From the NCBI RefSeq assembly GCF_013387475.1, contig NZ_VWNB01000013.1, forward strand, positions 1 through 64,000: a stretch of 64,000 nt of DNA, in the 5' to 3' direction. The notes beneath the pieces were generated by a model, which did not search any database, was not told where the DNA came from, and saw nothing but the letters and a program-made list of their open reading frames with translations. Below are positions 18,361-54,845 of the stretch, one piece after another; position 1 is the first letter of the stretch, and each line of letters opens with the position of its first letter. The stretch is from Mariprofundus sp. KV. Its GTDB lineage: Bacteria; Pseudomonadota; Zetaproteobacteria; Mariprofundales; Mariprofundaceae. The translations under genes and the position numbers were made by a program.

Positions 18361-18756
18361 TCAGGCGACGATATCGATCTTGGTCGTCTCCTGTTTACCT
18401 GTTGCTGCATTCACAGGCCTCTGCTGCTCGGCCACTTCACTGTCTGCCACTTTTTCGGTTACTTCATTATCCGTGGCAATGTGAGCAGGCGTCGGAGTGC
18501 TCTGAATCTCAGCTGCAAGCGACACACTATTGGCTGAGGCAGATGCCTCCTGTGTGGCCACCGCTGGTGGGGTGGCAGGGGCTGTTGCAGTGTAGTTGGA
18601 TTCGGAGCCAGCCATTTTCCGTGCTTCAGCAGAGAGTTGTACCGTATCGGTAGCTTTACGTGCATCCTGCAGACTCTGGGACTGGTTCTGTTGTGATTGA
18701 TTGACGGTGTTCTGGTCAATGGCAACGGCAGGTGTGGAAACGGGTAAAATGATCAT
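18361..18756 (-). CDS. Unknown low-complexity protein with a sigma-28 promoter
   Basis: A 131-residue protein, disordered in appearance and rich in Ala, Thr, Gln, Ser and Glu. No signal peptide or membrane segment is evident. It contains DTVQLSAEARKMA, a short motif that also appears near the N-terminus of FlgM and of some small putative motility proteins, but the C-terminal sigma-28-binding helices of FlgM are not apparent. The ATG has AAGGAGAG at good spacing. A sigma-28-type promoter (18889-18915) and a leader with two stem-loops precede it, tying it to late flagellar expression. No function is assigned. Confidence 0.7.
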   Translation of the reverse strand: MIILPVSTPAVAIDQNTVNQSQQNQSQSLQDARKATDTVQLSAEARKMAGSESNYTATAPATPPAVATQEASASANSVSLAAEIQSTPTPAHIATDNEVTEKVADSEVAEQQRPVNAATGKQETTKIDIVA

Positions 18757-18788
18757 GGTTCTCTCCTTCTCACGTCAAATAACATGTG

Positions 18789-18824
18789 CTGACATCATGT
18801 CAGTAAAGCGGGATATCATATCCC
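18789..18824 (-). promoter_or_regulatory. Two perfect palindromes / AUGAU-loop stem-loops in the leader
   Basis: CTGACAT-C-ATGTCAG (18789-18803) and GGGATAT-C-ATATCCC (18810-18824) are both perfect, with centres exactly 21 bases apart. On the minus strand the RNA would form stems CUGAC/GUCAG and GGGAU/AUCCC, each with loop AUGAU. They lie between the inferred start of transcription (about 18882) and the ATG at 18756. They could be RNA hairpins or tandem operators. Confidence 0.6.
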
Positions 18825-18888
18825 TGTGTTAAATTGTGAACGGAGGAGTCCATGTACCACCGTAGGCCTTTTGGGCCTTCAGGAATAC

Positions 18889-18915
18889 ATATCGGTAGCC
18901 GATAGACGGACTTTA
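18889..18915 (-). promoter_or_regulatory. Sigma-28 (FliA) promoter
   Basis: On the minus strand: TAAA (18915-18912), 15 bases, then ACCGATAT (18896-18889), against the consensus TAAA-N15-GCCGATAA. It is correctly oriented for the gene at 18361-18756, giving a leader of about 125 bases. Confidence 0.75.
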
Positions 18916-18936
18916 GAAATTATCTGAAATAATTTT

Positions 18937-18966
18937 AGGGTGCTCCACTAAATCATGGAACACCCT
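18937..18966 (-). terminator. Candidate terminator hairpin after the FkbM gene
   Basis: AGGGTGCTCC at 18937-18946 pairs with GGAACACCCT at 18957-18966 (one mismatch). It lies 59 bases past the stop of the FkbM-type gene and just upstream of the sigma-28 promoter. On the minus strand it is followed by AAAATTATTT, a weak U tract. Confidence 0.4.
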
Positions 18967-19024
18967 GAGAAATATGATTCGTTAACAGCTTATGCTGTGA
19001 TGGTGATGATATGCACTTGTGACT

Positions 19025-19852
19025 CTACTGCTTGTCAGGAAAACGTCTGACAGAGCGGGGGATCACCTGAATCTCATCTGCCGCAATGGGTATGTTGTGC
19101 CAGATCAGTTGCGTATTACCGCCAATAAGCAGTGTGCCATCATAGAGTTGGAAAAGCTTCGTGCCATACGGCTGATCGTTGTACATACGGTAGATTGAAT
19201 TATCCTCGATCTCGAAGAGGTGGAAGTACTCTTTGGGAACAAAGAAGCCGTTCCACGGTGTGGTGCAGATCAGTTCATACCCTTTGGCTTTGCCCAGTTC
19301 GATCATCGCATGCAGGGAGTTGCCGTGATTGAGGTCGTTATTGGGATCCTGAATGAAAACAATATCGTTAGGGATGGAGGGATTGAACTCGATGACAATA
19401 AGGCGGGGGCGGTGCTCTTTCAGCGAGTCCCAGATATGGTAGTCGTTGCCATCAACATCAATGGAGAGGAAATCGAAATCCTTCGGGATACCGGTCTCAT
19501 TGAGGATATCATCAAGTGAGTCCGGTGACTGGAACTGCACAAAGCGGTTAACACAATGCACCTTGGGATAGTTTTGATAGGTGGTGGTGAGTTCGCCAAA
19601 CTTTTCCGTGTTGGCTTCGATCATGACGCCGTGCCAACCCTTATTGACCAGCAGGTTGTAGGAGTTGGAGTAGAGCTTGCCATCCCAGGCCCCGAATTCG
19701 ACACACCATGGTTCTTCATTGGTGCCCATAATCTCAAAAATCTTCTCGATAATGCCATCCTCACCGGTTTGTGATGTGACATTGGATGCATGTTCAGACA
19801 ACCAGTTCTGGGAATTGTCGAATGGTTTCTGAACCTGTTTAATCTCAGCCAT
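19025..19852 (-). CDS. FkbM-type SAM-dependent methyltransferase
   Basis: A 275-residue protein of the FkbM methyltransferase family, which O-methylates sugars and small molecules. The SAM motif is VEFGAWDGK (51-59), followed by SNSYNLLVNKGWHGVMIEAN, DFLSIDVDGNDYHIWDSL and LIVIEFNPSIPND. The ATG at 19852 is preferred because GGAGAG lies 5-6 bases upstream; the longer frame would overlap the preceding gene. It is downstream of, and transcribed with, the GT41-methyltransferase fusion, so it may methylate the glycan added to flagellin (inference). Confidence 0.83.
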   Translation of the reverse strand: MAEIKQVQKPFDNSQNWLSEHASNVTSQTGEDGIIEKIFEIMGTNEEPWCVEFGAWDGKLYSNSYNLLVNKGWHGVMIEANTEKFGELTTTYQNYPKVHCVNRFVQFQSPDSLDDILNETGIPKDFDFLSIDVDGNDYHIWDSLKEHRPRLIVIEFNPSIPNDIVFIQDPNNDLNHGNSLHAMIELGKAKGYELICTTPWNGFFVPKEYFHLFEIEDNSIYRMYNDQPYGTKLFQLYDGTLLIGGNTQLIWHNIPIAADEIQVIPRSVRRFPDKQ

Positions 19853-19931
19853 AAAGCTCTCCTGGTAATTTAATAAACAATCTTTTTTGTGGGTAGAGTG
19901 TTCCCGATATTTGATGACCTGAAAATCATGG

Positions 19932-22202
19932 TCAGGTTTGCGGCTTTTCAGCAATCAGGTTCAGGCTGATCGGCCTGCCTGCGAAGACCATCTTGCTTGT
20001 ATCATTGAAGATGTTGAATTCCGGCACCTGACGCACATTCTTAAATCCGGCGTTATAGAGAAATCCACCAAGGATGCCGGCGTTATAACCGACCTTATGA
20101 AAGTCGTAAGCGTCAATTTGACCACCGTACATCATACGCATGACATTGAATCGGTCCTGGTCAGTAAGCTGATCTTTCATCAGGAACAGTTCACACAACA
20201 CCTCAAGATTGGGTACGCTTGCATAGATGATGCCGCCGGGTTTAAGAACGCGATACCACTCTGCCAGTACCTGTGAAAGCTCTGTCTGGTAACTGAAATG
20301 CTCCAGCACATGTGAGGAGTAGAGTGCATCAAAGGTGTTCTCTTCAAAGCGCGAGAGATCATTGGCATTACCGACATGGTCAACAATATCGCCAGAATTG
20401 GCATCAAAGATCTCCCATTCAGGGTGCGCTGTCTGGCCACCGATATGCAATTTTCGTCCGCTTGTTGTATTTGCCTCGTATTGGGGTGCGGCACTGCTCT
20501 CTTCACGCAACACGGCCGCAGGCAGTGGCAACCCGGTCTTCTCTGACCATGCATCACAGATAAGACTCTCCAGTTGACGGGTGAACTGCTGTGGATTGCG
20601 CAGGATGGAGTGTTTGAACAGGGTAACAAGGCATGAGCGTATGATTGAAAGCCCGGCCGGGTTCCGGGTCAACTGCACGGCTTTTTCGACATATTCATCC
20701 CGGCTGAATGCGATGCCCTCTTCAAAACCGATATTTTTCAGGATCGAGTAGGAGACACGCTGGGCATGACTTTCACCCACCAGTGTAACAACCGGCACCC
20801 CGATAGAGAGTGCATCACAGGTAGTGGTTGTGCCATTGTACGGGAATGTATCCAGTGCAATATCCACCTCATTATACATTCTGAAATTATCTTCATACTG
20901 GGCGGTGAAACCCTGCACCTGCAGGCGCTCCCGGCAGATGCCATGTGATGCAAATTCAGCAATGACGTTCTCTCTGATGATTGCATCATCAAGATCCTTG
21001 GCCTTGAGGATAAGGCGCGAATTTTCAACATGATTCAGTATCGCACTCCATGTCTCAATCACTTCGGGGTTGAGCTTTCTGACATGGTTGAATGATCCGA
21101 ATGTGACATAACCCTTTGTCTCAGAAGGTGTTTTGCTCGAACTGAATGCTGTGGTGTCAAATCCGTAACAGATGAAACTTTGTGGCATGCGGATCAGTTT
21201 TTCGCTGTAAAACTGATCACTGTTGTCATCGGCAAAGTGATCGGTGATGCGATAATCAACTGTACTCAGGCCGGTTGTGTTGGGGTAGCCGAGATAGGTG
21301 ATCTGGACCGGTGCCGGACGGTGGGCCAGCGAAGCGATTCTCGTGTTTGTTGTCATGCCATTGAGATCAATGGCGACATGGATACCATCGGCATGAATAC
21401 GGCCTGCCAGCTGGGCATCGGAGAGCTTTGTGATATCAATAAAGTGGTCGACGCTGTTTCTGATATGATCAGTGATCTCATCACTTCTTAGAAGATGGGC
21501 GTAGCAGTAGATCTCAAATTTGTCGCGCAGGTGATGGCTCAGGATATGATTGATAAAACAGCCGACCGGGTGAAAATTGAAGTCTGATGAGATATAGGCG
21601 ATCTTCATTCTGCCGCCGAGGTGACTCAGGGCTGGATAGGATGATGGCATGTCATGTTTTCTGGACTCGAACAGGGTGGTGCCAAATTGACAGTGCAGAT
21701 CACGAACTGACGCCTGATCGATATCGGGAAGGGCACAGGTCTCAATGAGCAGGGCAGGCAGCATGTTGCTGTCGATTTTACCCTCTTTACCCAGGGCGAT
21801 GATCTCTGCCTGATATTTACGCGCATTGTGCCAGTCACAGACAGAGAGATAGGCTCTGTAGACCATCATCAGCTCTGCGGTTGAGTGAATGTTTTTGCTT
21901 ATCTCAGCCGTCAGCTCAAGCATCTCTCTGTACATTCTGCAGTCGCGATAAGAGGACCAGAGCATCTGCCGAACTTCGCTGTTCTCTGCATCCATATCAT
22001 AAGCCTGTTTCAGGTATTTGATGGCCTCTTCGTGATTGATATGAAAGTAGTGACACTTTCCAGCTTCCAGCAACAGTTCAATATCTGATACATCTTTGTC
22101 AAAGCGGCAGAACAGTTCATACGCTTTGAGCGTTTCTCCATTCTGGATAAGTGTGCGCAGCTGTTGCGCTAAAGCTTTTTGTGCCTGCGACTCTTCTTGC
22201 AT
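19932..22202 (-). CDS. GT41 O-GlcNAc-transferase-like protein fused to a methyltransferase
   Basis: A 756-residue protein with three parts. Residues 1-190 are TPR-like helices. About 199-560 is a SPINDLY/OGT catalytic region (AYISSDFNFHPVGCFINHIL; APVQITYLGYPNTTGLSTVDYRITD; FGSFNHVRKLNPE, whose Lys corresponds to the UDP-binding Lys of human OGT; DIALDTFPYNGTTTTCDAL). About 583-756 is a class I methyltransferase (GRKLHIGGQ, then FDALYSSHVLEHF and LKPGGIIYASVPN). The position of the GHT motif in the two sister proteins reads GMT here. The ATG at 22202 with GGGG upstream is chosen over an in-frame GTG at 22247. It probably acts on flagellin in the cytoplasm. Confidence 0.85.
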   Translation of the reverse strand: MQEESQAQKALAQQLRTLIQNGETLKAYELFCRFDKDVSDIELLLEAGKCHYFHINHEEAIKYLKQAYDMDAENSEVRQMLWSSYRDCRMYREMLELTAEISKNIHSTAELMMVYRAYLSVCDWHNARKYQAEIIALGKEGKIDSNMLPALLIETCALPDIDQASVRDLHCQFGTTLFESRKHDMPSSYPALSHLGGRMKIAYISSDFNFHPVGCFINHILSHHLRDKFEIYCYAHLLRSDEITDHIRNSVDHFIDITKLSDAQLAGRIHADGIHVAIDLNGMTTNTRIASLAHRPAPVQITYLGYPNTTGLSTVDYRITDHFADDNSDQFYSEKLIRMPQSFICYGFDTTAFSSSKTPSETKGYVTFGSFNHVRKLNPEVIETWSAILNHVENSRLILKAKDLDDAIIRENVIAEFASHGICRERLQVQGFTAQYEDNFRMYNEVDIALDTFPYNGTTTTCDALSIGVPVVTLVGESHAQRVSYSILKNIGFEEGIAFSRDEYVEKAVQLTRNPAGLSIIRSCLVTLFKHSILRNPQQFTRQLESLICDAWSEKTGLPLPAAVLREESSAAPQYEANTTSGRKLHIGGQTAHPEWEIFDANSGDIVDHVGNANDLSRFEENTFDALYSSHVLEHFSYQTELSQVLAEWYRVLKPGGIIYASVPNLEVLCELFLMKDQLTDQDRFNVMRMMYGGQIDAYDFHKVGYNAGILGGFLYNAGFKNVRQVPEFNIFNDTSKMVFAGRPISLNLIAEKPQT

Positions 22203-22398
22203 CGTTACCCCTGCATGTGACCGGTTTGCCCGGTCGACTCCTGTCACATCACAAGCAAGTATCAGACCATCTATTTATTGACACCTGTTGCGGGTGAGGG
22301 CTTTTGCTTTCTATAACTTAAGGTGTCGGCATGTAACCTGCTAGGTGTGAACTTGAAAAATGAATAAATATGGTCTGGGTATGAGGTTTTGATTCTTA

Positions 22399-24462
22399 AT
22401 GAAGATTGAATTGAATCAGTTGATCGAACTCTATAATAGTGGCAAACATGAGAATCTGGAGGTTGCCTGTCAGGAGTTTTTGAATGCTCATCGTCAACAT
22501 GCCTACGCCTGGCACCTTGCGGCAGCTAATGCAGTGCAGTTGGGTCGATTTGAGCAGGGGCTTGAACGCGTTCAAATGGCTATCAAGTTACAGCCTCAGG
22601 AGATTAGCTTTTATAATACTCTGGGTAGTATCTACAGGCAGATGGGACGAATGCAGGAGGCTTGCAGGTGCTACAAACAAGCTCTCGAACTTGATCCAAA
22701 CAGTGTCGAATGTTTATACAACTTTGCCAATTTTTATCGGGATAGCGGTGAATTTCGTCGTGCTGTTGAGCTGTATCAGAATGCACTCAATGTGAATGTG
22801 CAGTTTCATGCTGCGCGAATTAATCTTGCCAACCTCTACCGCCACCTGTGCGATTCTGTATCAGCCGAGAGAGAGTTCCGCAGTTTGATTGAGCTGGGAG
22901 CGGAATCGGTAGAGGTTGTGTTCGGGTTGGGGCAATCGCTCTCTGATCAGGGTGAATATGAAGAGGCTGAAGGCTATTTCAGGCGGGTTGTTCAGGCACT
23001 GCCGGAAGATCCGAATGCCGTTTTTTACCTTGCTAATGTACTGTGGGCACAGGGGAAGATTTCAGAGGCTGAAGGTTATCACCGGCAGAGTGTTGCCCGG
23101 ATGCCTAAATTTCATCAGGCGTGGAATAATCTTGGCAATGATCTTCGTGATCAGGGCGAGCAGCAGCAGGCCTTAGCCTGCTACCGCAAAGCAATTGAAC
23201 TTCATCCATCCTACATGCAGGCCCACTCCAACCTTCTCTTTGAACTGAATTGCATGCTTACAGATGGCGCTGTTCTGCTGGAGGAGCACCATCGCTGGGA
23301 TGAGATGCATGCAAAACCACTGTTACAGCAGCTTAAGTTCGATAATGAGCGATCGGCAGGGAGGCGACTGCGTATCGGTTACGTCTCATCTGATTTCTGT
23401 AACCACTCCGTTGCTTATTTTATAGAGGGTGTGTTGAAACATCATGATGCGGAGAAGTTTGAGATCAGCTGTTACTCTAATCTGTTAAAGCCTGATGATC
23501 GCACAGCAGTGATTCGCAGTTTTGTCCACAACTGGAGGGAGATTGGCCATCTCTCAGATGATGCAGCAGCCCAACTGATCCGAAGTGATCAGATTGATAT
23601 CCTTGTTGACCTCTCCGGCCATACAGCCAATCACCGTCTTTTGGTGTTTGCCCGTAAGCCAGCACCTGTGCAGGTGACCTATCTGGGCTATCCGGCCACA
23701 ACCGGTATGCAGGCTATGGACTATCGCATTACCGACTTGATTGCGGATCCGGCCTGTAGTGATGCCTTTCATAGTGAGATATTGATTCGACTCGACCGCT
23801 GCTTTATCGCCTTTACGCCTTATGGACATGCCCCTGATGTATCGGCACTTCCTGTGGATGAGGCCGGTTTTATCCGGTTCGTCTCATTTAACCATATGGC
23901 CAAGATCGGTCCTGATGTTGTGAAACTATGGTCGCGGGTGCTGCATGCCGTACCTGATTCACGCTTGATGGTAAAACACTTCTCATTCAAAGATGAGGGG
24001 GTGCGCGACCATCTCCTTAAACTCTTCGCGGATCAGGGCATCGCTTCTGAGCGTATCGAGATATTCACATGGGCCCATAGTTGTGAAGAGCATCTGGGTT
24101 ACTACAGGCAGGCCGATATCGCTCTGGATAGTTTTCCCTATAACGGCACCACAACAACCTGTGAGGCGCTCTGGATGGGGGTTCCTGTGGTGACGCTGGA
24201 GGGCAGGTTGCATGCCGGGCGTGTCGGGTCTACGCTAATGAGCAGGGTAGGCCTTGAGCGGTTGATTACGGCCGATGAAGATGCCTATATAAATATAGTA
24301 GGTGATCTGGCTACAGACCTGGCACGGTTACGCGCGATTCGTGCCACGCTGAGAGAGCGGATGGCTGAATCAGAGTTGTGTGACTCTGCTGGTTTAACCG
24401 CAGTGTTGGAAGGTGAGTATAGGGAGATGTGGCGGCGCTGGTTGGAGAGTGAGAAAAAATGA
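22399..24462 (+). CDS. TPR-GT41 O-GlcNAc-transferase-like protein (SPINDLY type)
   Basis: A 687-residue protein. Residues about 1-280 are seven or so TPR units (for example NTLGSIYRQMGRMQEACRCY; NNLGNDLRDQGEQQQALACY). From about 323 comes the GT41 catalytic domain: LRIGYVSSDFCNHSVAYFIEG, DILVDLSGHTANHRLLVFARKPAPVQVTYLGYP, FNHMAKIGPDVVKLW and DIALDSFPYNGTTTTCEALWMGVPVVTLEG. Such enzymes transfer a sugar (GlcNAc or fucose in characterised members) to Ser/Thr. It lies directly upstream of flagellin and on the same strand, with flagellin driven by its own sigma-28 promoter. Flagellin as the target is inferred from location. Confidence 0.9.
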   Translation: MKIELNQLIELYNSGKHENLEVACQEFLNAHRQHAYAWHLAAANAVQLGRFEQGLERVQMAIKLQPQEISFYNTLGSIYRQMGRMQEACRCYKQALELDPNSVECLYNFANFYRDSGEFRRAVELYQNALNVNVQFHAARINLANLYRHLCDSVSAEREFRSLIELGAESVEVVFGLGQSLSDQGEYEEAEGYFRRVVQALPEDPNAVFYLANVLWAQGKISEAEGYHRQSVARMPKFHQAWNNLGNDLRDQGEQQQALACYRKAIELHPSYMQAHSNLLFELNCMLTDGAVLLEEHHRWDEMHAKPLLQQLKFDNERSAGRRLRIGYVSSDFCNHSVAYFIEGVLKHHDAEKFEISCYSNLLKPDDRTAVIRSFVHNWREIGHLSDDAAAQLIRSDQIDILVDLSGHTANHRLLVFARKPAPVQVTYLGYPATTGMQAMDYRITDLIADPACSDAFHSEILIRLDRCFIAFTPYGHAPDVSALPVDEAGFIRFVSFNHMAKIGPDVVKLWSRVLHAVPDSRLMVKHFSFKDEGVRDHLLKLFADQGIASERIEIFTWAHSCEEHLGYYRQADIALDSFPYNGTTTTCEALWMGVPVVTLEGRLHAGRVGSTLMSRVGLERLITADEDAYINIVGDLATDLARLRAIRATLRERMAESELCDSAGLTAVLEGEYREMWRRWLESEKK

Positions 24463-24488
24463 TATTGAAAAAAAACAGAAAAAAAAAT

Positions 24489-24515
24489 TAAAGTGCGGTT
24501 TTTTCTCTCCGATAC
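24489..24515 (+). promoter_or_regulatory. Sigma-28 (FliA) promoter of flagellin
   Basis: TAAA at 24489-24492, exactly 15 bases, then TCCGATAC at 24508-24515. This is a near-consensus flagellar class III promoter. The expected start of transcription is about 24521-24523, giving a leader of roughly 95 bases before the flagellin ATG. Confidence 0.88.
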
Positions 24516-24523
24516 ACTTTATC

Positions 24524-24590
24524 ACAAGGGCTGAGGAACAGAACTTGTAGGGGATGAACCCCACCGTGACAGGGCAGGAAGTCGTTCACG
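24524..24590 (+). promoter_or_regulatory. Structured flagellin leader with GGA-loop and AUGAA-loop hairpins
   Basis: Three stem-loops can be drawn. First, CTG-AGGAA-CAG (24531-24541), extended by outer arms ACAAG (24524-24528) and CTTGT (24544-24548). Second, GGGG-ATGAA-CCCC (24550-24562). Third, CGTGA (24565-24569) with TCACG (24586-24590), enclosing CAGGAAG. AGGA in a hairpin loop plus a further GGA at the ribosome-binding site (AAGGAG) is the usual pattern of CsrA/RsmA targets, known for Bacillus flagellin mRNA. Confidence 0.55.
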
Positions 24591-24617
24591 TTAACTACAT
24601 ACTAAGGAGAGATTAAA

Positions 24618-25784
24618 ATGGCACTATCCGTCCAAACCAATAATGCGGCTGTAACGGCCCTCAAACACCTCAACACCAATAGCATGGAAATGAACAAATC
24701 TCTGGAGCGTCTGTCTTCTGGTTTCCGTATTAACTCGGCTGCCGATGATGCTGCAGGTTTTGCTATTTCATCCAAACTGGATTCTCAGAACGTTCGACTG
24801 AAAGCAGCAGCATTGAATGCAACCCAGGCGCAAGCCATGGTGAAAACTGCTGACGCGGGTGTGAACGAGATTCAGAACATGGTAGTTCGTCTGCAGTCTC
24901 TGGCTACACAGGCGATGTCTGCCAACAACGGTGGTGAACTTGCTTCTCTGGACGCTGAGCGCGGTAAGCTCGAGTCTGCAATTAACAAGATTGCTGCTAA
25001 CACTGAGTATAACGGTACTAAACTGTTGAATGGTTCTGCTGGTACAGCAGTTACTGCTGGTTCAACTGTTGATGATACCACCACCAACGGTATTTCAAGC
25101 ATCACCGCTAACGGTGCTGCTGCAAGTACTACCTTCTCAATCAGCTATGTGGATCAGGCTGGTGTTACCAATACCTTCGGTGCTGGTGATGCAATCCGGA
25201 TTACAGATGGTACTAACACTGCATCTGTAACTGTAGCAACACTGCCTACAGGTCAGGCAACCCAGAACTATTCACTGCTTGGTTTTGATTTCACCATTAA
25301 CTCCTCCATCAGTGGACTTACTACTGCAGCGGGCACTGGTTCTATCGCCTCAACCGGTACATTGATTACCGATGCAGGTGCATCTTCAGTGTTCCAGGTT
25401 GGTGCAGCAACTGGTGTTGATAACCAGGTATCTGTGGCATTCAGTAACAGCTACACCACTACTGGTCTGGGTATCTCAGGTGCGAATGATCTTACCACAG
25501 TGGCTGGCGCAACTGCCTATGCTGGTGAGTTGACTACTGCTCTGAATAATCTGGTTACACAACGTGCCGATCTCGGTGCGACTCAGAACCAGCTCTCATT
25601 CGTAGCGGCTAACCTGGCGACTAGTATTGAGCAGGCAACTGCATCAGTATCATCCATCAGGGACGCTGATATGGCTGCTGAGATGGCTAACTTCACCAAG
25701 AACCAGATTCTTACTCAGGCTGGTACTTCAATGTTGGCGCAGGCTAATCAGGCTGCACAGAATGTACTCTCACTGTTCAGGTAA
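24618..25784 (+). CDS. fliC: Flagellin
   Basis: A 388-residue filament protein. The conserved D0/D1 N-terminus (SVQTNNAAVTALKHLNTNS; LERLSSGFRINSAADDAAGFAIS) and C-terminus (QRADLGATQNQLSF; IRDADMAAEMANFTKNQIL; AQAAQNVLSLFR-like end) flank a variable middle (about 140-300) very rich in Ser, Thr, Gly and Ala. That surface region is the natural target for the neighbouring O-linked sugar transferases (inference). A strong AAGGAG precedes the ATG. Driven by the sigma-28 promoter at 24489 and followed by a stem-loop before flaG. Confidence 0.98.
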   Translation: MALSVQTNNAAVTALKHLNTNSMEMNKSLERLSSGFRINSAADDAAGFAISSKLDSQNVRLKAAALNATQAQAMVKTADAGVNEIQNMVVRLQSLATQAMSANNGGELASLDAERGKLESAINKIAANTEYNGTKLLNGSAGTAVTAGSTVDDTTTNGISSITANGAAASTTFSISYVDQAGVTNTFGAGDAIRITDGTNTASVTVATLPTGQATQNYSLLGFDFTINSSISGLTTAAGTGSIASTGTLITDAGASSVFQVGAATGVDNQVSVAFSNSYTTTGLGISGANDLTTVAGATAYAGELTTALNNLVTQRADLGATQNQLSFVAANLATSIEQATASVSSIRDADMAAEMANFTKNQILTQAGTSMLAQANQAAQNVLSLFR

Positions 25785-25798
25785 GAGACTGGCTAAAT

Positions 25799-25820
25799 CC
25801 TCTCCCCTACGGGGGAGAGG
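25799..25820 (+). terminator. Strong stem-loop between flagellin and flaG
   Basis: A 9-bp perfect stem (arms 25799-25807 and 25812-25820, CCTCTCCCC and its complement) with tetraloop TACG. No U run follows, so it is more likely a partial attenuator or an mRNA 3-prime-end stabiliser that lets flagellin mRNA outnumber flaG-fliD mRNA. Confidence 0.6.
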
Positions 25821-25850
25821 TAGGCCCATAAAAGGCAAGGAGGTAATGAC

Positions 25851-26219
25851 ATGGCTGCTATAGATCAGATGCAATCAAGCCTAATGCTCTCTTCGCCGAA
25901 TGTGGGATCAGCTGGAGTTCGGCCGGTAGCTGTCCAACCGACAAAAGCCCCCGTCTCGAGCGAACAGAATGTACAAGCTGCCGAAAAAAAGGTGACTGAG
26001 CAGGAAGTTCAGAAGGCAGTAAGTCAGGTAAACCTTGAAATGAGTGGAAGCAATGAGGATATCTCATTCGGTTACGAAAAACGTCTCGGAATGTTGTATG
26101 TCCAGGTAACAGATAAGAATAGCGGTGAAGTTGTCCGCGAAATCCCATCTAAAGAGTTTCTTCAGCATAAAGTTGCCATGCGAGAAATGGTAGGTTTGTT
26201 GCTGGATAAACAGGCCTGA
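25851..26219 (+). CDS. flaG: FlaG family protein
   Basis: A 122-residue protein with a variable, polar N-terminal half and the conserved FlaG C-terminal domain (SFGYEKRLGMLYVQVTDKNSGEVVREIPSKEFLQ). FlaG proteins affect filament length and usually lie between flagellin and fliD, as here. The ribosome-binding site AAGGAGGT is strong. It ends two bases before the fliD start. Confidence 0.93.
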   Translation: MAAIDQMQSSLMLSSPNVGSAGVRPVAVQPTKAPVSSEQNVQAAEKKVTEQEVQKAVSQVNLEMSGSNEDISFGYEKRLGMLYVQVTDKNSGEVVREIPSKEFLQHKVAMREMVGLLLDKQA

Positions 26220-26221
26220 TC

Positions 26222-28567
26222 ATGGCTAACACAATTTCAAGTCAGGTAACTGGCATCGCCGGTTTTGACACGGCAGCAGCTGTAGAAGGGCTGCTGTCGT
26301 TTCAAAAACTGGAGCTTTCTCTGGCTCAAAGCAGGCAGGAAAGCGAACTGGCCAAGCAGGATGCGCTCACTACCATCAGAGATGCGCTTGCCAGTTTTCG
26401 CAGCACGGCGACAAGTCTCGCCAATAAAAATGAGTTTTTCGGTTACACCGCAAGCCTGAGTAGCGACTCGGCAACAGTTTCAGCCAGCACCCTGCTGGAT
26501 GTCAGCGGTACCAATTCAGTTTCAGCCGGCCAGCATACGATTGTCGTTGAGCAGCTGGCGCAGGCACAACGTCTCGCATCATCCGTCGCAGTAAAAGATA
26601 ATACAGGCACAGCCGCTACAAGTGACACAACGGCACTCAATCTGAGTGGCACGTTTGTTATTGAAGGTGCGACCATCACTGTCGCTGTGGGTGACTCCCT
26701 GCAGGACATCGCAGCAAACATTAATCAGGCCAACACCGGTGCAGCAGCTACCGGAGTCTCCGCCTCTGTTGTAAAGGTTTCAGACAGTGATTTTCGCCTG
26801 ACTCTGGTTGCCGATGCAACCGGATCAACCGGTTATACCTTGAGTGGTGCCGATCTTGATGCAGCCGGATCTCTGGCCAACCTTCAGTTGGGGGCAACGG
26901 GTCAGGCTAATCAGCGCCAAACCGTACTGGCAGCTCAGGATGCTCAGATCTCTGTGGACGGGTTAACCCTTACCCGCAGTAGCAATACGATTTCGGATGT
27001 ACTCTCAGGTGTGACCTTCACTCTCAAACAGTCTGATCCGACTGTATCGGTCAATATGACCGTTGGTGTGGATGAGGTCTCTTTACGGGATAGCGTCCAG
27101 TCTTTTGTCGATGGCTATAACAGTGTACAATCTCTGATCAATGAGCAGTTCGTTTTTGATGAAGCGACGGGGCAAAGTGGTATTCTTTCTGGTGAGGCTC
27201 TGCTGAGAAACCTGCAGAATTCACTCTCATCAACACTGCTGCAGACGGTTCCCGGACTGGCTTCTGACCGTAACAGTCTGGTCAGTATCGGTGTCGAGCC
27301 GGATCAGTACGGACAGCTCTCAATCAACGATAATCTGTTTGCTCCCATTCTGGCCAGTGATCCGAATACCATCCGTGATCTTTTTGTCGCCAGCGGCAGC
27401 AGCACAAACTCAAAAATGCAGTTTCTGATTCATGGCGACAACTCCACTTCCGGCACCTATTCGGTGAATGTCACCCAGGCTGCCACGCAGGCTTCAGTTA
27501 CTGGCAGTGCCGATTTGACGGTCGCTCTGGCCTCGGATCAGACCGTGACCCTGACTGAAACCGGCAGTGCCCGTCAGGCAGTGGTTAATCTGACTGCCGG
27601 GCAGACACAGAATGCTATCATCAGTGCACTGAACACTGAGTTTCAGCGGGTGGCTACTGAACAGCACAATCTGAGCACCGCATTGACCGTTGGCGGTTTA
27701 CCAGCCACCGGCTCCAATCTCTTTAATGACCTGGCCCTGGGCGTGAGTGTGGGTGATACCATCGCTATTACCGGCACCACCCGTACAGGTCAGGCGGTGA
27801 ACTCCTCCTATACAGTGCTGGATCCTGCATCAGATACCATTTCGGGCCTTCTTTCAGCAATTCAGAGCGCCTATAACCAGCAGGTGATCGCGTCACTGGA
27901 TGTGAATGGTAATGTTCAGATTACCGACATCCAGTCTGGTGACAGCCAGTTGTCGATCTCCTTGACGGCCAATAACGAAGGCGGCGGCACACTTGCATTC
28001 GGTTCAGATACGGTTGTTACCGAAGGGCGTTATGCCATGAATATCGAAGCGGTGATCGCAGGCAACGGTGTAAAGATTCAATCTGTCGGTTATGGCTCCA
28101 GCAGTGGCTTCTCCATTGCCCAGAGTGTTGATGGCCTTGGTATTGCCGATCAGAGCGCAAGCGGCCTGGATGTGCTGGGAACTATTAATGGCCTCGCCGC
28201 CACAGGTAAGGGGCAGCTGCTGCAGGGCACTGACGGTATTGTTGACGGTATGGGTGTCTACTACACAGGCACCACCACAGGTGTTATCGATCTGACCGTC
28301 GGCATTGGTATCGGCGCCCGCTTTGATGGTCAGCTCTCCCTCTTTACCAATCCGATCACCGGCCTGTTTCAGAACAGGCAACAGGCGAGTATGGATATTT
28401 ATACCACGCTGGCTGATCGTATCGCGGCGATGGAGGCTCAGATGGTGAGCCAGAGAGAGCTGCTGACCAGACAGTTTACTGAGATGCAGCAGGTGCTTTC
28501 CGGACTGCAGCGCTCGGGTGATTTCCTGACTGCGCAGATCAATGCACAGAATGCCAGAAACAACTAA
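26222..28567 (+). CDS. fliD: Flagellar hook-associated protein 2 (filament cap), oversized
   Basis: A 781-residue protein. The FliD N-terminal domain (TGIAGFDTAAAVEGLLSFQKLELSL; FRSTATSLANKNEF) and the C-terminal domain (RFDGQLSLFTNPITGLF through a coiled end, AAMEAQMVSQRELLTRQFTEMQQVLSGL) are clear. Typical FliD is about 450-700 residues. The extra length is in the surface-exposed middle (about 400-620), which is Ser/Thr-rich with hook-protein-like repeats. It caps the filament and catalyses flagellin assembly. Glycosylation of the middle is possible but unsupported. Confidence 0.94.
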   Translation: MANTISSQVTGIAGFDTAAAVEGLLSFQKLELSLAQSRQESELAKQDALTTIRDALASFRSTATSLANKNEFFGYTASLSSDSATVSASTLLDVSGTNSVSAGQHTIVVEQLAQAQRLASSVAVKDNTGTAATSDTTALNLSGTFVIEGATITVAVGDSLQDIAANINQANTGAAATGVSASVVKVSDSDFRLTLVADATGSTGYTLSGADLDAAGSLANLQLGATGQANQRQTVLAAQDAQISVDGLTLTRSSNTISDVLSGVTFTLKQSDPTVSVNMTVGVDEVSLRDSVQSFVDGYNSVQSLINEQFVFDEATGQSGILSGEALLRNLQNSLSSTLLQTVPGLASDRNSLVSIGVEPDQYGQLSINDNLFAPILASDPNTIRDLFVASGSSTNSKMQFLIHGDNSTSGTYSVNVTQAATQASVTGSADLTVALASDQTVTLTETGSARQAVVNLTAGQTQNAIISALNTEFQRVATEQHNLSTALTVGGLPATGSNLFNDLALGVSVGDTIAITGTTRTGQAVNSSYTVLDPASDTISGLLSAIQSAYNQQVIASLDVNGNVQITDIQSGDSQLSISLTANNEGGGTLAFGSDTVVTEGRYAMNIEAVIAGNGVKIQSVGYGSSSGFSIAQSVDGLGIADQSASGLDVLGTINGLAATGKGQLLQGTDGIVDGMGVYYTGTTTGVIDLTVGIGIGARFDGQLSLFTNPITGLFQNRQQASMDIYTTLADRIAAMEAQMVSQRELLTRQFTEMQQVLSGLQRSGDFLTAQINAQNARNN

Positions 28568-28585
28568 AATAACTGCACTCAGGCT

Positions 28586-28612
28586 TTAAGTTTGGCTTGG
28601 AAAATCCGATAG
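28586..28612 (+). promoter_or_regulatory. Sigma-28-like promoter of fliS-1
   Basis: TTAA at 28586-28589, 15 bases, then TCCGATAG at 28605-28612. The -10 block matches that of flagellin except for the last base. The -35 is one base off TAAA. The expected leader is about 55 bases. Confidence 0.68.
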
Positions 28613-28628
28613 ATATATGCACAAACAG

Positions 28629-28645
28629 TTGACGATGAACGTCAA
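28629..28645 (+). promoter_or_regulatory. AUGAA-loop stem-loop in the fliS-1 leader
   Basis: TTGACG-ATGAA-CGTCAA, a perfect 6-bp stem that extends by a G-U and an A-U pair, 28 bases before the fliS-1 ATG. Same loop as the flagellin leader hairpin, on an unrelated stem. Confidence 0.6.
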
Positions 28646-28673
28646 TTAATACAAAAATTGCACGGAGGCTGAT

Positions 28674-29117
28674 ATGACAGGTTATAAGGCGTATAAAGGA
28701 AACCAGATTGAAGGAGCAGGCCCTTTAGGGCTTGTGCTATTAACCTATGATGCACTTAATCGGGCCTTGGGCCGTGCACGACTGGCTATCGAAGCGGGTG
28801 ATTTCAGTCAGGAAGGCGAACATACCGGGCGAGCAATTGAAGCTGTTATCGAGCTCTCATCATCGCTGAATATGAAAGAGGGGGGCGATGTGGCCATAGG
28901 CCTGGCTCGTCTCTACGTCTATATGATTAACACGCTGACAGAAAATATGTGCTCAGGTTCTTCAAAGGGTGTGGATGAGGTGATGGCACTTGCCCGGACA
29001 TTGCGTGATGGCTGGCAGGAGCTTGCTGATCAGCAGGAAAAAAAGTTATCCCGGCCAGTAGCACGCCAACAGGTCTCCGCTAACGCATTCCAGCCGGCGA
29101 TGGCTTATGGTCTGTGA
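28674..29117 (+). CDS. fliS: Flagellar export chaperone FliS (copy 1)
   Basis: A 147-residue helical chaperone that holds flagellin monomers before export. Family features: YKGNQIEGAGPLGLVLLTYDALNRALGRARLAIEAGD, then EAVIELSSSLNMKEGGDVAIGLARLYVYMINTL. The ribosome-binding site CGGAGG is close to the ATG. Its stop overlaps the next start (GTGA), so the FliT-like protein is translationally coupled. A second FliS lies at 31466. Confidence 0.93.
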   Translation: MTGYKAYKGNQIEGAGPLGLVLLTYDALNRALGRARLAIEAGDFSQEGEHTGRAIEAVIELSSSLNMKEGGDVAIGLARLYVYMINTLTENMCSGSSKGVDEVMALARTLRDGWQELADQQEKKLSRPVARQQVSANAFQPAMAYGL

Positions 29118-29446
29118 AAACCTCTCCTGACGCAGTTCAGGACCAGATCTCCGGTTGCCTGAAGGCGCTGGACGGGTTGAATCGCTGTATAAGAGGACGT
29201 AACTGGGCAAAACTGGGTGAGAGAGACAGAGCGCTTAACAGTGCAATGAATCAACTGCAAATCAGTGTTGAGAAACTTCCCAATCTGGACGATAACCTGA
29301 TCAGCCAGCTGCAAAGCCTGAATCTCCAGTTCCGGCGTACTCAGCGTAAGCTATCTTCTCTGATCCGTGCCGCAGAGTCCGATATTGCATCACTCGAGAA
29401 GGGCATGCGAAAGGTAGCGATGATCAGAGAGGCGCTTGACGGTTAG
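29114..29446 (+). CDS. Small helical protein in the FliT position
   Basis: A 110-residue, mostly helical protein with a GTG start overlapping the fliS-1 stop. It has the size, all-helical character and position of FliT-type chaperones (FliD-binding), for example LNRCIRGRNWAKLGERDRALN and LQSLNLQFRRTQRKLSSLIRAAESDIASLEKG. Sequence similarity to FliT cannot be confirmed by eye, so the assignment rests mostly on context. Confidence 0.6.
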   Translation: MKTSPDAVQDQISGCLKALDGLNRCIRGRNWAKLGERDRALNSAMNQLQISVEKLPNLDDNLISQLQSLNLQFRRTQRKLSSLIRAAESDIASLEKGMRKVAMIREALDG

Positions 29447-29574
29447 CGGCATGTTCCAGGCCAGGACCCTTAAAATACAATCATTTATAGTGCATGATCC
29501 AGACTTGTTCATGGATTGCTTTATTCTATAGTAGGCAATGATCGATGTGGTGAATGAGAGGGAGAAGGTCATTT

Positions 29575-31332
29575 GTGACTGGCATTGCTGATGCAATTGA
29601 AATGTATAATCAGGGCCGCTTTCAGGAAGTAGAGCAGATATGTTCAGCCATATCATCTGAAAGTGAAAGCTACGCGCAGGCGCAGCATCTGCTTGGTCTG
29701 CTGGCCTATCAACATGGCATGTTAGCCGAAGCAGAGGTTTTCCTTCTCAATGCGATTGCCTTGCGACCACGCGAAGCGATGTTCCGAAATCATCTGGGCA
29801 GTGTACAGTGTGCACTGGGACGACTGGATGATGGTATAGCGACATATCGTCGGGCGATTAAACTGAACCCCAGGCTTGCCGACACACATTTTAATCTTGG
29901 CAATGCCCTTAAGAGAAAAGGTGAGTTTCTTAAAGCGCAGAGAGCCATGAAGCGGGCGCTGGAGCTCAATCCGGATTTAGATGGCGCTAAACTTAATTTG
30001 GCTATTCTACTGCGAGATCAGGGACAAACAGAGAAGGCTGAGAAACTTCTTGAACGAGCGATGCAACAGCATCCCGATCATGTGAGTATAGCAAGTAATT
30101 ATCTATTTAATCTGAATTATCACATTACCGATGGTCAGCGCCTCTTTGATGCGCATCTTAAGTTTGCAGAAACCCACGCTGTAAAAACAGGCTTATCTCC
30201 CACCTCTTATGTGAACATACCTGATAAAAACAGGCGGTTACGCATCGGTTATGTCTCAGCTGATTTATATCGCCACTCGGTGGCCTATTTTTTTGAACCG
30301 CTGCTCAGGCAGCATCAGCGCGACAACTTTGAAATTTTCTGCTACTCAAGTGTCATCAAAACCGATGATATAACCGAACGCCTTCAGGGATTTACTGATG
30401 TTTGGCGAGATGTAAGCCAGCTTCCTGATCGATCCGTGGCAGAGCAGGTCCGCCAGGATGGTATCGATATTCTTGTGGATTTAGGTGGTCATACCTCTAT
30501 TCAGAGGTTACTTGTGTTTGCTGAGAAACCAGCACCGATTCAAGTTACCTATCTCGGTTACCCCAATACCACCGGCCTCTCCAGTATCGATTATCGTTTT
30601 ACTGATATTAAGGCAGACCCAGCCGGTAACGAGCGTTGGCATGCTGAAAGATTGCTGCGTTTACCAGGTGGTTTCTTGTGTTTTTCTGCATTAAATGAGG
30701 CACCTGATGTTGAAATGGCACCTAATAACGCTAAAGGTTATATTACCTTTGGTTGCTTTAACGCGATGGCCAAAATTCAGCCTGAATTGATTCAGTTATG
30801 GAGCGAGATTCTCAAGGCAGTGCCTGATTCGCGGTTATTGCTGAAAAATACTGCGTTGAGTGATAAAGAGGTTCAAAAGCAGCTGCTTCTCGCTTTTAGA
30901 AAGCATGGTGTCGGAGCGAATCGTTTGATGCTTCATGGGCGCTTGGCATCGCCTCAGGATCATCTGTCTCTCTATCATCAAGTCGATATAGCCTTGGATA
31001 GCTTTCCCTATAATGGTACGACAACGAGTTTTGAAGCCTTGTGGATGGGTGTGCCTTTGGTTTCACTATATGGTGATCTTCATGCCAGCCGTGTTGGTTT
31101 GAGTATACTATCAAGTATTGGTTTAGAGGATTTGACGGCATCAACACCTGAGCAGTATGTCACTGTTGCCAAAGTATTGGCTGATGACCGACAGAGGCTG
31201 GAGGATTTGCGTTTGAGCTTGCGGGATCTGGTTGAGCAGAAGTTATGTGATGCTGAAAGTTTTACCTGCAGGGTCGAAGATGCTTTCCGAAAGATATGGC
31301 AGGAGTGGTGTGAAAAGCAGAACCGTGATTGA
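29575..31332 (+). CDS. TPR-GT41 O-GlcNAc-transferase-like protein (third copy)
   Basis: A 585-residue protein with about four TPR units (about 1-185; HLGSVQCALGRLDDGIATY, NLGNALKRKGEFLKAQ) and a GT41 catalytic domain: LRIGYVSADLYRHSVAYFFEPLL, DILVDLGGHTSIQRLLVFAEKPAPIQVTYLGYP, FNAMAKIQPELIQLW and DIALDSFPYNGTTTSFEALWMGVPLVSLYG. GTG at 29575 is chosen because GAGAAGG lies 6 bases upstream; an ATG at 29554 is in frame. It sits between the two fliS genes, which strongly suggests flagellin or another exported filament protein as substrate (inference). Confidence 0.88.
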   Translation: MTGIADAIEMYNQGRFQEVEQICSAISSESESYAQAQHLLGLLAYQHGMLAEAEVFLLNAIALRPREAMFRNHLGSVQCALGRLDDGIATYRRAIKLNPRLADTHFNLGNALKRKGEFLKAQRAMKRALELNPDLDGAKLNLAILLRDQGQTEKAEKLLERAMQQHPDHVSIASNYLFNLNYHITDGQRLFDAHLKFAETHAVKTGLSPTSYVNIPDKNRRLRIGYVSADLYRHSVAYFFEPLLRQHQRDNFEIFCYSSVIKTDDITERLQGFTDVWRDVSQLPDRSVAEQVRQDGIDILVDLGGHTSIQRLLVFAEKPAPIQVTYLGYPNTTGLSSIDYRFTDIKADPAGNERWHAERLLRLPGGFLCFSALNEAPDVEMAPNNAKGYITFGCFNAMAKIQPELIQLWSEILKAVPDSRLLLKNTALSDKEVQKQLLLAFRKHGVGANRLMLHGRLASPQDHLSLYHQVDIALDSFPYNGTTTSFEALWMGVPLVSLYGDLHASRVGLSILSSIGLEDLTASTPEQYVTVAKVLADDRQRLEDLRLSLRDLVEQKLCDAESFTCRVEDAFRKIWQEWCEKQNRD

Positions 31333-31377
31333 GTAAAATCATAAAACCTGTAGCAGTAACTCATTTCCAGCTACTTC

Positions 31378-31404
31378 TAAAGTCTGCCAGCCGGTATGCG
31401 ATAC
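31378..31404 (+). promoter_or_regulatory. Sigma-28 (FliA) promoter of fliS-2
   Basis: TAAA at 31378-31381, exactly 15 bases, then TGCGATAC at 31397-31404. Same spacing as the flagellin promoter. The expected leader is about 55 bases. Confidence 0.78.
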
Positions 31405-31422
31405 ATTATGGTATATAAGGAT

Positions 31423-31441
31423 GGTTGTGATGATCACAACC
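31423..31441 (+). promoter_or_regulatory. AUGAU-loop stem-loop in the fliS-2 leader
   Basis: GGTTGTG-ATGAT-CACAACC, a perfect palindrome (arms of 7-8 bases) 24 bases before the fliS-2 ATG. It could fold as a hairpin with loop AUGAU or act as a DNA operator just after the start of transcription. Confidence 0.62.
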
Positions 31442-31465
31442 AGTTGAATCAGCAAGGAGGCAGCT

Positions 31466-31873
31466 ATGACCGGATATCAAACGTATCAGGGCAACCAGAT
31501 TGACGGGGCAGGACCACTTGGGCTGGTTCTGCTTACCTATGAATCACTCTTCAAATCACTCGGACAGGCGCGTATGGCGATTCAGGCCAGCGATATGATG
31601 GCTGAAGCCAGGCATACCAGTCGGGCGATGGAGGCGTTGATTGAGCTCTCTACCAGCCTGAATATGGAAGAGGGCGGGCAAGTGGCACAGGGGCTGGCCA
31701 GTCTCTATGTGTATATGATGAACAGGCTTACTGAAGGGTTATGCAGCGGCTCAACCGATCATGTTAATGAGGTGATTCAGCTGGTTCAGAAGCTTCGTGA
31801 AGGCTGGACACAGCTCTCATCTCAGCAGCAGAACAAGAGCATCTCGCTTCAGAGGCAGCAGCAGGCAGCCTGA
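31466..31873 (+). CDS. fliS: Flagellar export chaperone FliS (copy 2)
   Basis: A 135-residue paralogue of the FliS at 28674, sharing most of the core (GNQIDGAGPLGLVLLTYESLFKSLGQARMAIQASD; LIELSTSLNMEEGGQVAQGLASLYVYMMNRLTE). It has its own sigma-28 promoter and an AAGGAGG ribosome-binding site. Two FliS copies in one cluster suggest a duplication around the third GT41 gene. It may serve a different flagellin or a glycosylated form, which is speculation. Confidence 0.92.
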   Translation: MTGYQTYQGNQIDGAGPLGLVLLTYESLFKSLGQARMAIQASDMMAEARHTSRAMEALIELSTSLNMEEGGQVAQGLASLYVYMMNRLTEGLCSGSTDHVNEVIQLVQKLREGWTQLSSQQQNKSISLQRQQQAA

Positions 31874-53388: not shown

Positions 53389-53417
53389 ATTTTATGAGGA
53401 AGAATAGGAGGATAGCC

Positions 53418-54845
53418 GTGTCTGGAGAAAAACCCGACGAACAAGAGTACAGCTTTACCGTTGTAAAATGGTTCTCCCTGGCTGCAGTAGTCTACCTTGT
53501 GGTAGGTGCGCTGGTTGGAGATTTTATTGCCTGGGAGCTTACATTTCCCGAACTTAACTTTGATAATCCCTACATCAGCTTCGGCCGATTAAGACCACTG
53601 CATACCAATGCCGTTATTTTTGCATTTGGTGGCTCAACCTTGATGGCGACAGCTTATTATATTGTGCAGCGAACGTGTCATGTGCGTCTGTGGAGTGATA
53701 AACTGGCCTGGTTCACCTTCTGGGGCTGGAATGCAATTATTGTTGCAGCAGTAATCACCTTCCCACTGGGGCTGACACAGGGCAAAGAGTATGCTGAGCT
53801 GATCTGGCCAATTGATATCGCTATTGCCGTTGTCTGGCTGGCTTTCACCTTCAACTTTATTATGACCATCGTCAATCGCAGGGTATCCCATATCTACGTA
53901 GCTAACTGGTTCTTCCTCTCCATGATGGTGATGATCACCATCCTGCATGTGGTCAACTCACTGGCTATTCCGGTTACCCTGACACACTCCTATTCCATCT
54001 ACTCCGGTGTTCACGATGCCATGATTCAGTGGTGGTGGGGCCATAATGCGGTGGGCTTCTTCCTGACTGCGGGTTTTCTCGGTATCATGTATTATTTCGT
54101 GCCCAAGCAGGCCAATCGTCCGGTATTCTCCTATCGACTCTCTGTACTGCACTTCTGGGCACTCTCATTCGGTTACGTATGGCTGGGTGCGCATCATCTG
54201 CAGTACACCGCACTTCCCGACTGGACCGGTTCACTCGGCGCAGCTGTATCGATGGCGATGATCATTCCATCATGGGGTGGTGCGATTAACGGTGTGATGA
54301 CCCTCTCCGGTGCATGGAACAAGCTACGTGATGATTACGTATTACGTTTCCTTGTTGTCTCACTGGCGTTTTATGCCATGTCCACCTTCGAAGGTCCGGT
54401 GATGTCGATCAAGACAGTAAATGCCTTGAGTCACTACACGGACTGGACCATCGGTCATGTGCACTCCGGTGCTTTGGGTTGGGTGGCGATGGTCTCTATC
54501 GGTGCGATCTACCATATGGTCACCAAACTTTGGGGTCGCGAGATCTATTCGGTGAGTCTGGTCAATACACACTTCTGGATTCATACCATCGGCACCATCA
54601 TCTACATCTGTGCGATGTGGGTTTCCGGCATCATGCAGGGCTTGATGTGGCGCGCTACAGACGACTACGGCAATCTGGTCTACACCTTTGCTGAAACCGT
54701 ATCAGCGATGCATCCGTACTACGCATTGCGCTCTATCGGTGGTGTGCTGGTGCTGCTGGGCTCTCTCATCATGCTCTACAACATCATCAAGACAATCAGT
54801 GGTGCCCGTCAGCCTGTTTCTGCAGCTGCGGAAGCCAAGGCTTAA
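53418..54845 (+). CDS. ccoN: cbb3-type cytochrome c oxidase subunit I
   Basis: A 475-residue catalytic subunit with 12 membrane segments holding heme b and the heme b3-CuB centre. Family features: [57 protein letters not shown] (CuB-side His), [14 protein letters not shown] and [35 protein letters not shown] at 53418 is the likely start since AGGAGG lies 6-7 bases upstream; ATG at 53394 is in frame. First gene of ccoNOQP. Confidence 0.96.

Follow-up and report, generated by a model that had tools for sequence, protein, structure and literature searches.

Probable CsrA-type hairpins with a shortened loop in the leaders of sigma-28 flagellar mRNAs of Mariprofundus

Introduction

The triplet GGA is regarded as indispensable for CsrA and RsmA, and the prediction of their targets depends on it; to our knowledge, both G bases are needed by every well-studied CsrA. 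The closest described relatives of the elements discussed here belong to the CsrA-FliW systems of Campylobacter jejuni and Bacillus subtilis, in which the flagellin leader (flaA and hag, respectively) carries an upstream hairpin and a Shine-Dalgarno (SD) site approximately 20-25 nt apart, and in which fliW is accompanied by a CsrA with a FliW-binding Asn and a C-terminal extension. The flaA leader of C. jejuni has two hairpins to which CsrA binds, one of them over the SD (PMC4894983), and for B. subtilis a loop has been described in which flagellin titrates FliW (PMC6529632). We present an analysis of a comparable set of leaders in Mariprofundus sp. KV (Zetaproteobacteria; genome of 2.53 Mb), based upon a stretch of 64,000 nucleotides (contig NZ_VWNB01000013.1, positions 1 to 64,000), hereafter called the window. 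Four of its transcription units with sigma-28 promoters, those of flagellin, fliS-1, fliS-2 and a gene that we call g4, possess leader hairpins which we consider to be CsrA-type elements (probability about 0.8).

As in C. jejuni and B. subtilis, fliW is present in the genome together with a CsrA possessing the FliW-binding Asn and the extension, and the flagellin leader combines upstream hairpins with an SD site. Unlike in flaA and hag, most of the loops are pentaloops of the form ANGAN and contain no GGA, there are three hairpins in the flagellin leader, and the element is shared by both fliS mRNAs and g4. The loops also resemble the A(N)GGAX loops of RsmE and CsrA ligands such as RsmZ and hcnA in starting with A and in having a GA core, a free N and X and a stem whose sequence is free; loops of the form A-GGA-X, in which the N is absent, are known as weaker ligands. 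The common form AUGAW (AUGAA or AUGAU) nevertheless replaces the first G of GGA, or drops one G of ANGGA, a change stated to be impossible for RsmE. The novelty lies in the shortened loop without GGA; no report of a non-canonical loop in a CsrA hairpin was found in a search of the literature.

Hairpins in the sigma-28 leaders

The first-pass annotation of the window had reported five AUGAW hairpins in the four leaders, and all five are present where it had placed them, between a clear sigma-28 promoter of the pattern AAGT-N14-(C/G)CGATA and the start codon. A shuffled-leader control, which it had proposed, places the chance rate far below this number: counting AUGAW hairpins with Watson-Crick stems of at least 4 in 3000 dinucleotide shuffles of the four leaders gave 0.006 on average and never more than 2. 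When any loop class was allowed to win, only 9 of 2000 shuffles contained a class with 2 members and none a larger one, and the pattern is thus real even though the loop had been chosen freely.

The fliS-1 gene (28674..29117, + strand; PF02561, TIGR00208) is preceded by its promoter at 28588..28611 (AAGTTTGGCTTGGAAAATCCGATA), the hairpin AGUUGACG-AUGAA-CGUCAAUU at 28627..28647 (loop 28635-28639; written out, (AG)TTGACG-ATGAA-CGTCAA(TT)) and an SD mini-hairpin, GC-ACGGAG-GC, at 28660..28669. Ahead of fliS-2 (31466..31873, + strand; PF02561, TIGR00208) are a promoter at 31380..31403 (AAGTCTGCCAGCCGGTATGCGATA), the hairpin UGGUUGUG-AUGAU-CACAACCA at 31422..31442 (loop 31430-31434; written out, (T)GGTTGTG-ATGAT-CACAACC(A)) and the mini-hairpin GC-AAGGAG-GC at 31452..31461. 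A covariance model of hairpin plus SD scores them at 49.4 and 47.7 bits, respectively, both sequences being in its training set. The two genes, each with its own sigma-28 promoter, are diverged paralogues of approximately 60% identity; such pairs occur in many relatives, though not in all.

The leader of flagellin (24618..25784, + strand; PF00669, PF00700) extends from the promoter at 24491..24514 (AAGTGCGGTTTTTTCTCTCCGATA) to an AAGGA SD at 24604..24608. It contains three hairpins: CUG-AGGAA-CAG at 24524..24548 (hairpin 1; loop 24534-24538), GGGG-AUGAA-CCCC at 24550..24562 (hairpin 2), and CGUGA..GGC-AGGAA-GUC..UCACG at 24565..24590 (hairpin 3; loop 24576-24580). Hairpins 1 and 3, both with the loop AGGAA, had been overlooked earlier, as had the AAGGA- or ACGGA-type SD in every one of the four leaders.

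On the minus strand, g4 (18361..18756) encodes a 131-aa protein of unknown function for which no family was matched in Pfam or NCBIfam. Its promoter lies at 18890..18913 (AAGTCCGTCTATCGGCTACCGATA) and is followed by a canonical ANGGA site, AUGGA within UACAUGGACU, at 18849..18853; relatives have ACAUGGAC or ACAAGGAU in this place, with N variable, and the site may be written as ACANGGAY (AAGGA in the relative L047). Next come a distal hairpin, GGGAU-AUGAU-AUCCC, at 18810..18824 (L035 has GGGAUAUGAUUUCCC), a proximal one, CUGAC-AUGAU-GUCAG, at 18789..18803, 37 nt upstream of the start, and an AAGGA SD at 18764..18768 which is a possible second CsrA site. The product is a small Ser/Gln/Ala-rich protein, encoded under a long and structured sigma-28 leader, and homologs are found near flagellin in the islands of four relatives.

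Among the upstream sites of the window GGA is present in flagellin hairpins 1 and 3 and in the AUGGA site of g4, and absent from both fliS hairpins and both AUGAU hairpins of g4; the relatives mix both kinds. Because GGA is lacking in many of the upstream loops, we class these leaders as a variant that would work like a CsrA site and not as proven members of that class.

Conservation and loop interchange

The fliS and flagellin islands of approximately 40 relatives were compared, with the leaders read individually; those of more distant genomes with FliW were too different for comparison. The flagellin leaders usually carry three consecutive hairpins. The stem of hairpin 3, CGUGAC-ARGGC-[loop]-GUC-GUUCACG, is nearly invariant, and its loop is ANGAN or ANGGAN in all 33 leaders (27 pentaloops and 6 hexaloops, including one in L032 that was counted by eye as a change outside the hairpin had escaped the script pattern). 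The pentaloops are AUGAU, AUGAA, AUGAG, AUGAC, AGGAA, AGGAU and AAGAU, while the hexaloops (AAGGAU, AUGGAU and AGGGAC) are the textbook A-N-G-G-A-X loop of CsrA. Hairpin 1 likewise has AGGAA, AAGAA, AUGAA, ACGGAA, AUGGAA, AAGGAA and some others. Hairpin 2, the one chosen for flagellin in the first-pass annotation, is less conserved than either of the others (AAGAU, AUAAU and AAAAU in relatives), and the conserved elements are those on either side of it. The annotation had also set CsrA aside on the ground that its sites need GGA and had known of no flagellar element of this type; the interchange of ANGAN and ANGGAN at orthologous positions makes that dismissal premature, and CsrA-FliW is a known flagellar system using such elements.

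For fliS the strongest penta- or hexaloop hairpin was scored in leaders having their own sigma-28 promoter, without selection on ANGA. Its loop was ANGAN or ANGGAN in 26 of 32 leaders, compared with 1.4% in shuffled leaders. The hairpin lies mostly 30-37 nt upstream of the fliS start, and its loops include AUGAW, AGGAW and AAGAU. In additional leaders with an interrupted stem the loop is still kept (e.g. CG-AGGAU-CG in L032, CG-AUGAU-CG in L033 and L039, CG-ACGAU-CG in L053). Across relatives the loop of the proximal g4 hairpin is AUGAU, AUGAA or AGGAU (GGC-AUGAU-GUC, GGC-AUGAA-GCC and GGC-AGGAU-GUC).

Compensatory double changes were found at all seven stem pairs (57 cells against 20 in shuffled alignments; covariation score 0.771 against 0.217), the rows having been picked for pairing beside the loop, which favours the inner pairs and leaves the outer ones unselected. 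Neither alignment shows any change at loop positions A1, G3 and A4, which partly reflects the choice of rows by ANGA. Position 2 of the fliS loops is U in 24, G in 5, A in 3 and C in 1, and so the loop, which had been described as a constant AUGAW, is actually A-N-G-A-N. The proposal of a hairpin that acts as RNA and is of the kind recognized by proteins, its stem being free to vary and its loop constrained, is otherwise borne out by the orthologous leaders.

The similar positions noted earlier hold with respect to the start codon and the SD, not to the promoter. From loop to ATG there are 29-42 nt in both g4 and fliS, with one extra distal copy in g4 at 58, whereas from the estimated transcription start to the loop there are 62-86 nt in g4 and mostly about 19 in fliS. 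This arrangement points to translation.

The Shine-Dalgarno site and its spacing

Pairing with the ribosome would favour A at the second position of ANGGA, and a signature of CsrA is that the base between a constant A and GGA is free to vary. In 36 fliS leaders the SD is GCANGGAG(G/C)C, that is GC-A-N-GGAG-(G/C)C, with N being A in 21, C in 9, U in 4 and G in 2, a pattern to be expected from CsrA and not from ribosome pairing; the ANGGA overlaps the SD in all of them, and in flagellin and g4 the corresponding sequence is AAGGA. The A of the loop and the A of the SD are separated by 22-29 nt in 31 of 33 fliS leaders. The corresponding spacing in C. jejuni flaA is 21 nt, and the optimum stated for a CsrA dimer is 18 nt (PMC4894983); the fliS spacing is therefore compatible with a single dimer bridging both sites.

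CsrA2 and FliW

Two csrA genes are present in the genome. The divergent one, csrA2, lies in the order flgM-flgN-flgK-flgL-csrA2-fliW, sharing an operon with the adjoining fliW (the flg names were read from translated frames, whereas Pfam models identify fliW and csrA). The CsrA2 domain matches PF02599 with 63 bits against a cut-off of 27, and also solved CsrA and RsmE chains. All CsrA2 sequences read have the FliW-binding Asn (position 55), and the C-terminal extension is present; in C. jejuni both are required for FliW binding (PMC7829508).

CsrA2 differs from the CsrA of C. jejuni and B. subtilis in three features. Position 5 is Arg or Lys in approximately 30 sequences from across the order, in contrast to Thr or Ser in CsrA1, outgroup CsrA and RsmE; position 45 is Met or Leu instead of Glu in most; and one residue is inserted before VRIG. 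In RsmE Thr5 touches the guanine in the base pair that closes the loop (PMC4005645). It is plausible that these pocket changes brought about a relaxation or a shift of specificity.

In the relatives L097 (G012:C1) and L192 (G026:C38) fliW is situated between a csrA2-type gene and a second csrA, and G008 and G012 have three csrA genes each. Genomes with fliS nearly always possess fliW.

Proposed mechanism and rival explanations

The most likely reader of the hairpins is the divergent, fliW-linked CsrA2, and we infer that it, not CsrA1, recognizes the pentaloop. One RNA pocket of the CsrA2 dimer would hold the loop of the hairpin, which is A-N-G-A-N but in certain relatives A-N-G-G-A-N, and the other the ANGGA of the SD about 25 nt downstream, thereby blocking the ribosome and repressing flagellin, fliS-1, fliS-2 and g4. 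FliW would sequester CsrA2 and would itself be titrated by cytoplasmic flagellin, so that flagellin, both FliS chaperones and g4 would be translated mainly during filament export. For binding, repression and antagonism by FliW the analogy is with hag and flaA. FliS joins flagellin and FliW in a heterotrimer (PMC6070490), so that shared control of fliS would keep the chaperone and flagellin in step. We further incline, with little better than even confidence, to the idea that a zetaproteobacterial, fliW-partnered CsrA paralogue has shifted from ANGGAN hexaloops to accepting single-G ANGAN pentaloops as well, with flagellin, fliS and another late flagellar mRNA being wired to it. If true, this breaks the rule that CsrA needs GGA and suggests that searches for CsrA targets outside the model species overlook sites. 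CsrA-FliW control would probably extend to fliS chaperone mRNAs and to the Zetaproteobacteria, and the interchange of loops beside a divergent CsrA would offer a natural system for learning how CsrA specificity evolves.

Several observations weigh against a CsrA-type element. The bases of A(N)GGAX are described for RsmE complexes as ones that "cannot be substituted" (PMC4005645), and control by CsrA was lost in C. jejuni when GGA in SL1 of flaA was changed to UGA (PMC4894983), so that an ordinary CsrA should not recognize AUGAW. Five fliS leaders (L043, L045, L060, L067 and L069) have no clear ANGAN hairpin, and no such hairpin lies between the upstream gene and the start of several fliS genes that lack a sigma-28 promoter of their own. 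Lastly, genome G019 has the hairpins, yet csrA2 and fliW were not found in its 92%-complete assembly.

The rejection of UGA by known CsrA proteins, together with the dominance of AUGAW (U at position 2 in 24 of 33 fliS loops), would be accounted for if a different, undescribed RNA-binding protein read the hairpins and left the ANGGA sites of the SD to CsrA. We consider this quite unlikely, since AUGAW swaps with the CsrA-type AGGAW and ANGGAW at the same leader positions, CsrA sites show just this pattern of constant A, G and A with variable N and X, and a divergent csrA shares a flagellar operon with fliW. A second reading retains CsrA and makes the more canonical CsrA1 the regulator, with AUGAW as a weak secondary site aided in cis by the SD site. 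CsrA1 occurs in the same genomes, and secondary CsrA sites without GGA, e.g. AGAGA, have been reported (PMC4066749). It is in our opinion unlikely: the CsrA1 of this genus lacks the FliW-linked C-terminal extension and has mostly Asn, not His, at position 43, and weak secondary sites are not expected to persist with covarying stems in dozens of genomes.

Two further explanations were considered. Inverted repeats could be DNA operators, and the AUGAU members are indeed near-perfect DNA palindromes; however, those with AUGAA (as the first-pass annotation rightly argued) and AGGAA are not palindromic, and the position is fixed to the start codon and SD and not to the promoter, making this very improbable. 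That the AUG of the loop starts a regulatory upstream peptide is scarcely credible: each AUGAW loop of the window does have an AUG with a short reading frame, but the orthologous loops AGGA, AAGA, ACGA and AAGGA lose the AUG, with the stem and the constant A, G and A retained. Loop variation and spacing led us to reject both of these as well as a fixed seed for a small RNA. The preferred reading remains that of CsrA-type elements read by CsrA2.

Specificity across the genome

A hairpin in every sigma-28 unit, as had been noted for the island, holds only within the window; elsewhere in the genome there are sigma-28-like promoters without it (L117 and L108). L117 (G000:C5:42339), in which such a promoter precedes an 83-aa protein (MAMSVQPVDGLIHRLL...), is a plausible sigma-28 unit; an ANGA loop is absent from the hairpin in its leader.

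Taken by itself, the hairpin lacks specificity across the genome. A strong AUGAU hairpin at 53924-53942 (+ strand), the best match to the hairpin model in the window, lies inside the ORF 53394-54845, which resembles subunit I of a cbb3-type oxidase, and is taken as a chance occurrence. A hairpin-only covariance model held too little information for a whole-genome search; 150 of 1094 candidates were scored, and the hits inspected were not ahead of plausible starts. With the hairpin-plus-SD model (R2), matches with E values of 1e-4 or better were at fliS starts or fliS-like fragments, being mostly training sequences; in this search for a wider regulon only fliS leaders were found, and the weaker matches look like noise. 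A contig search of the genomes for relatives of fliS-1 gave none that was confirmed. No described RNA family in Rfam matches these leaders; one MS2-operator-like match at 23974 (E = 0.13) is inside coding sequence and was regarded as chance.

Neighbouring genes

The flagellin and fliS genes are flanked by three large SPINDLY/OGT-like proteins (19932-22247, - strand; 22399-24462 and 29554-31332, + strand), two of which match GT41 in Pfam, the third being alike by eye. An FkbM methyltransferase is encoded in the same region (19025-19954). Together these probably represent a flagellin O-glycosylation island.

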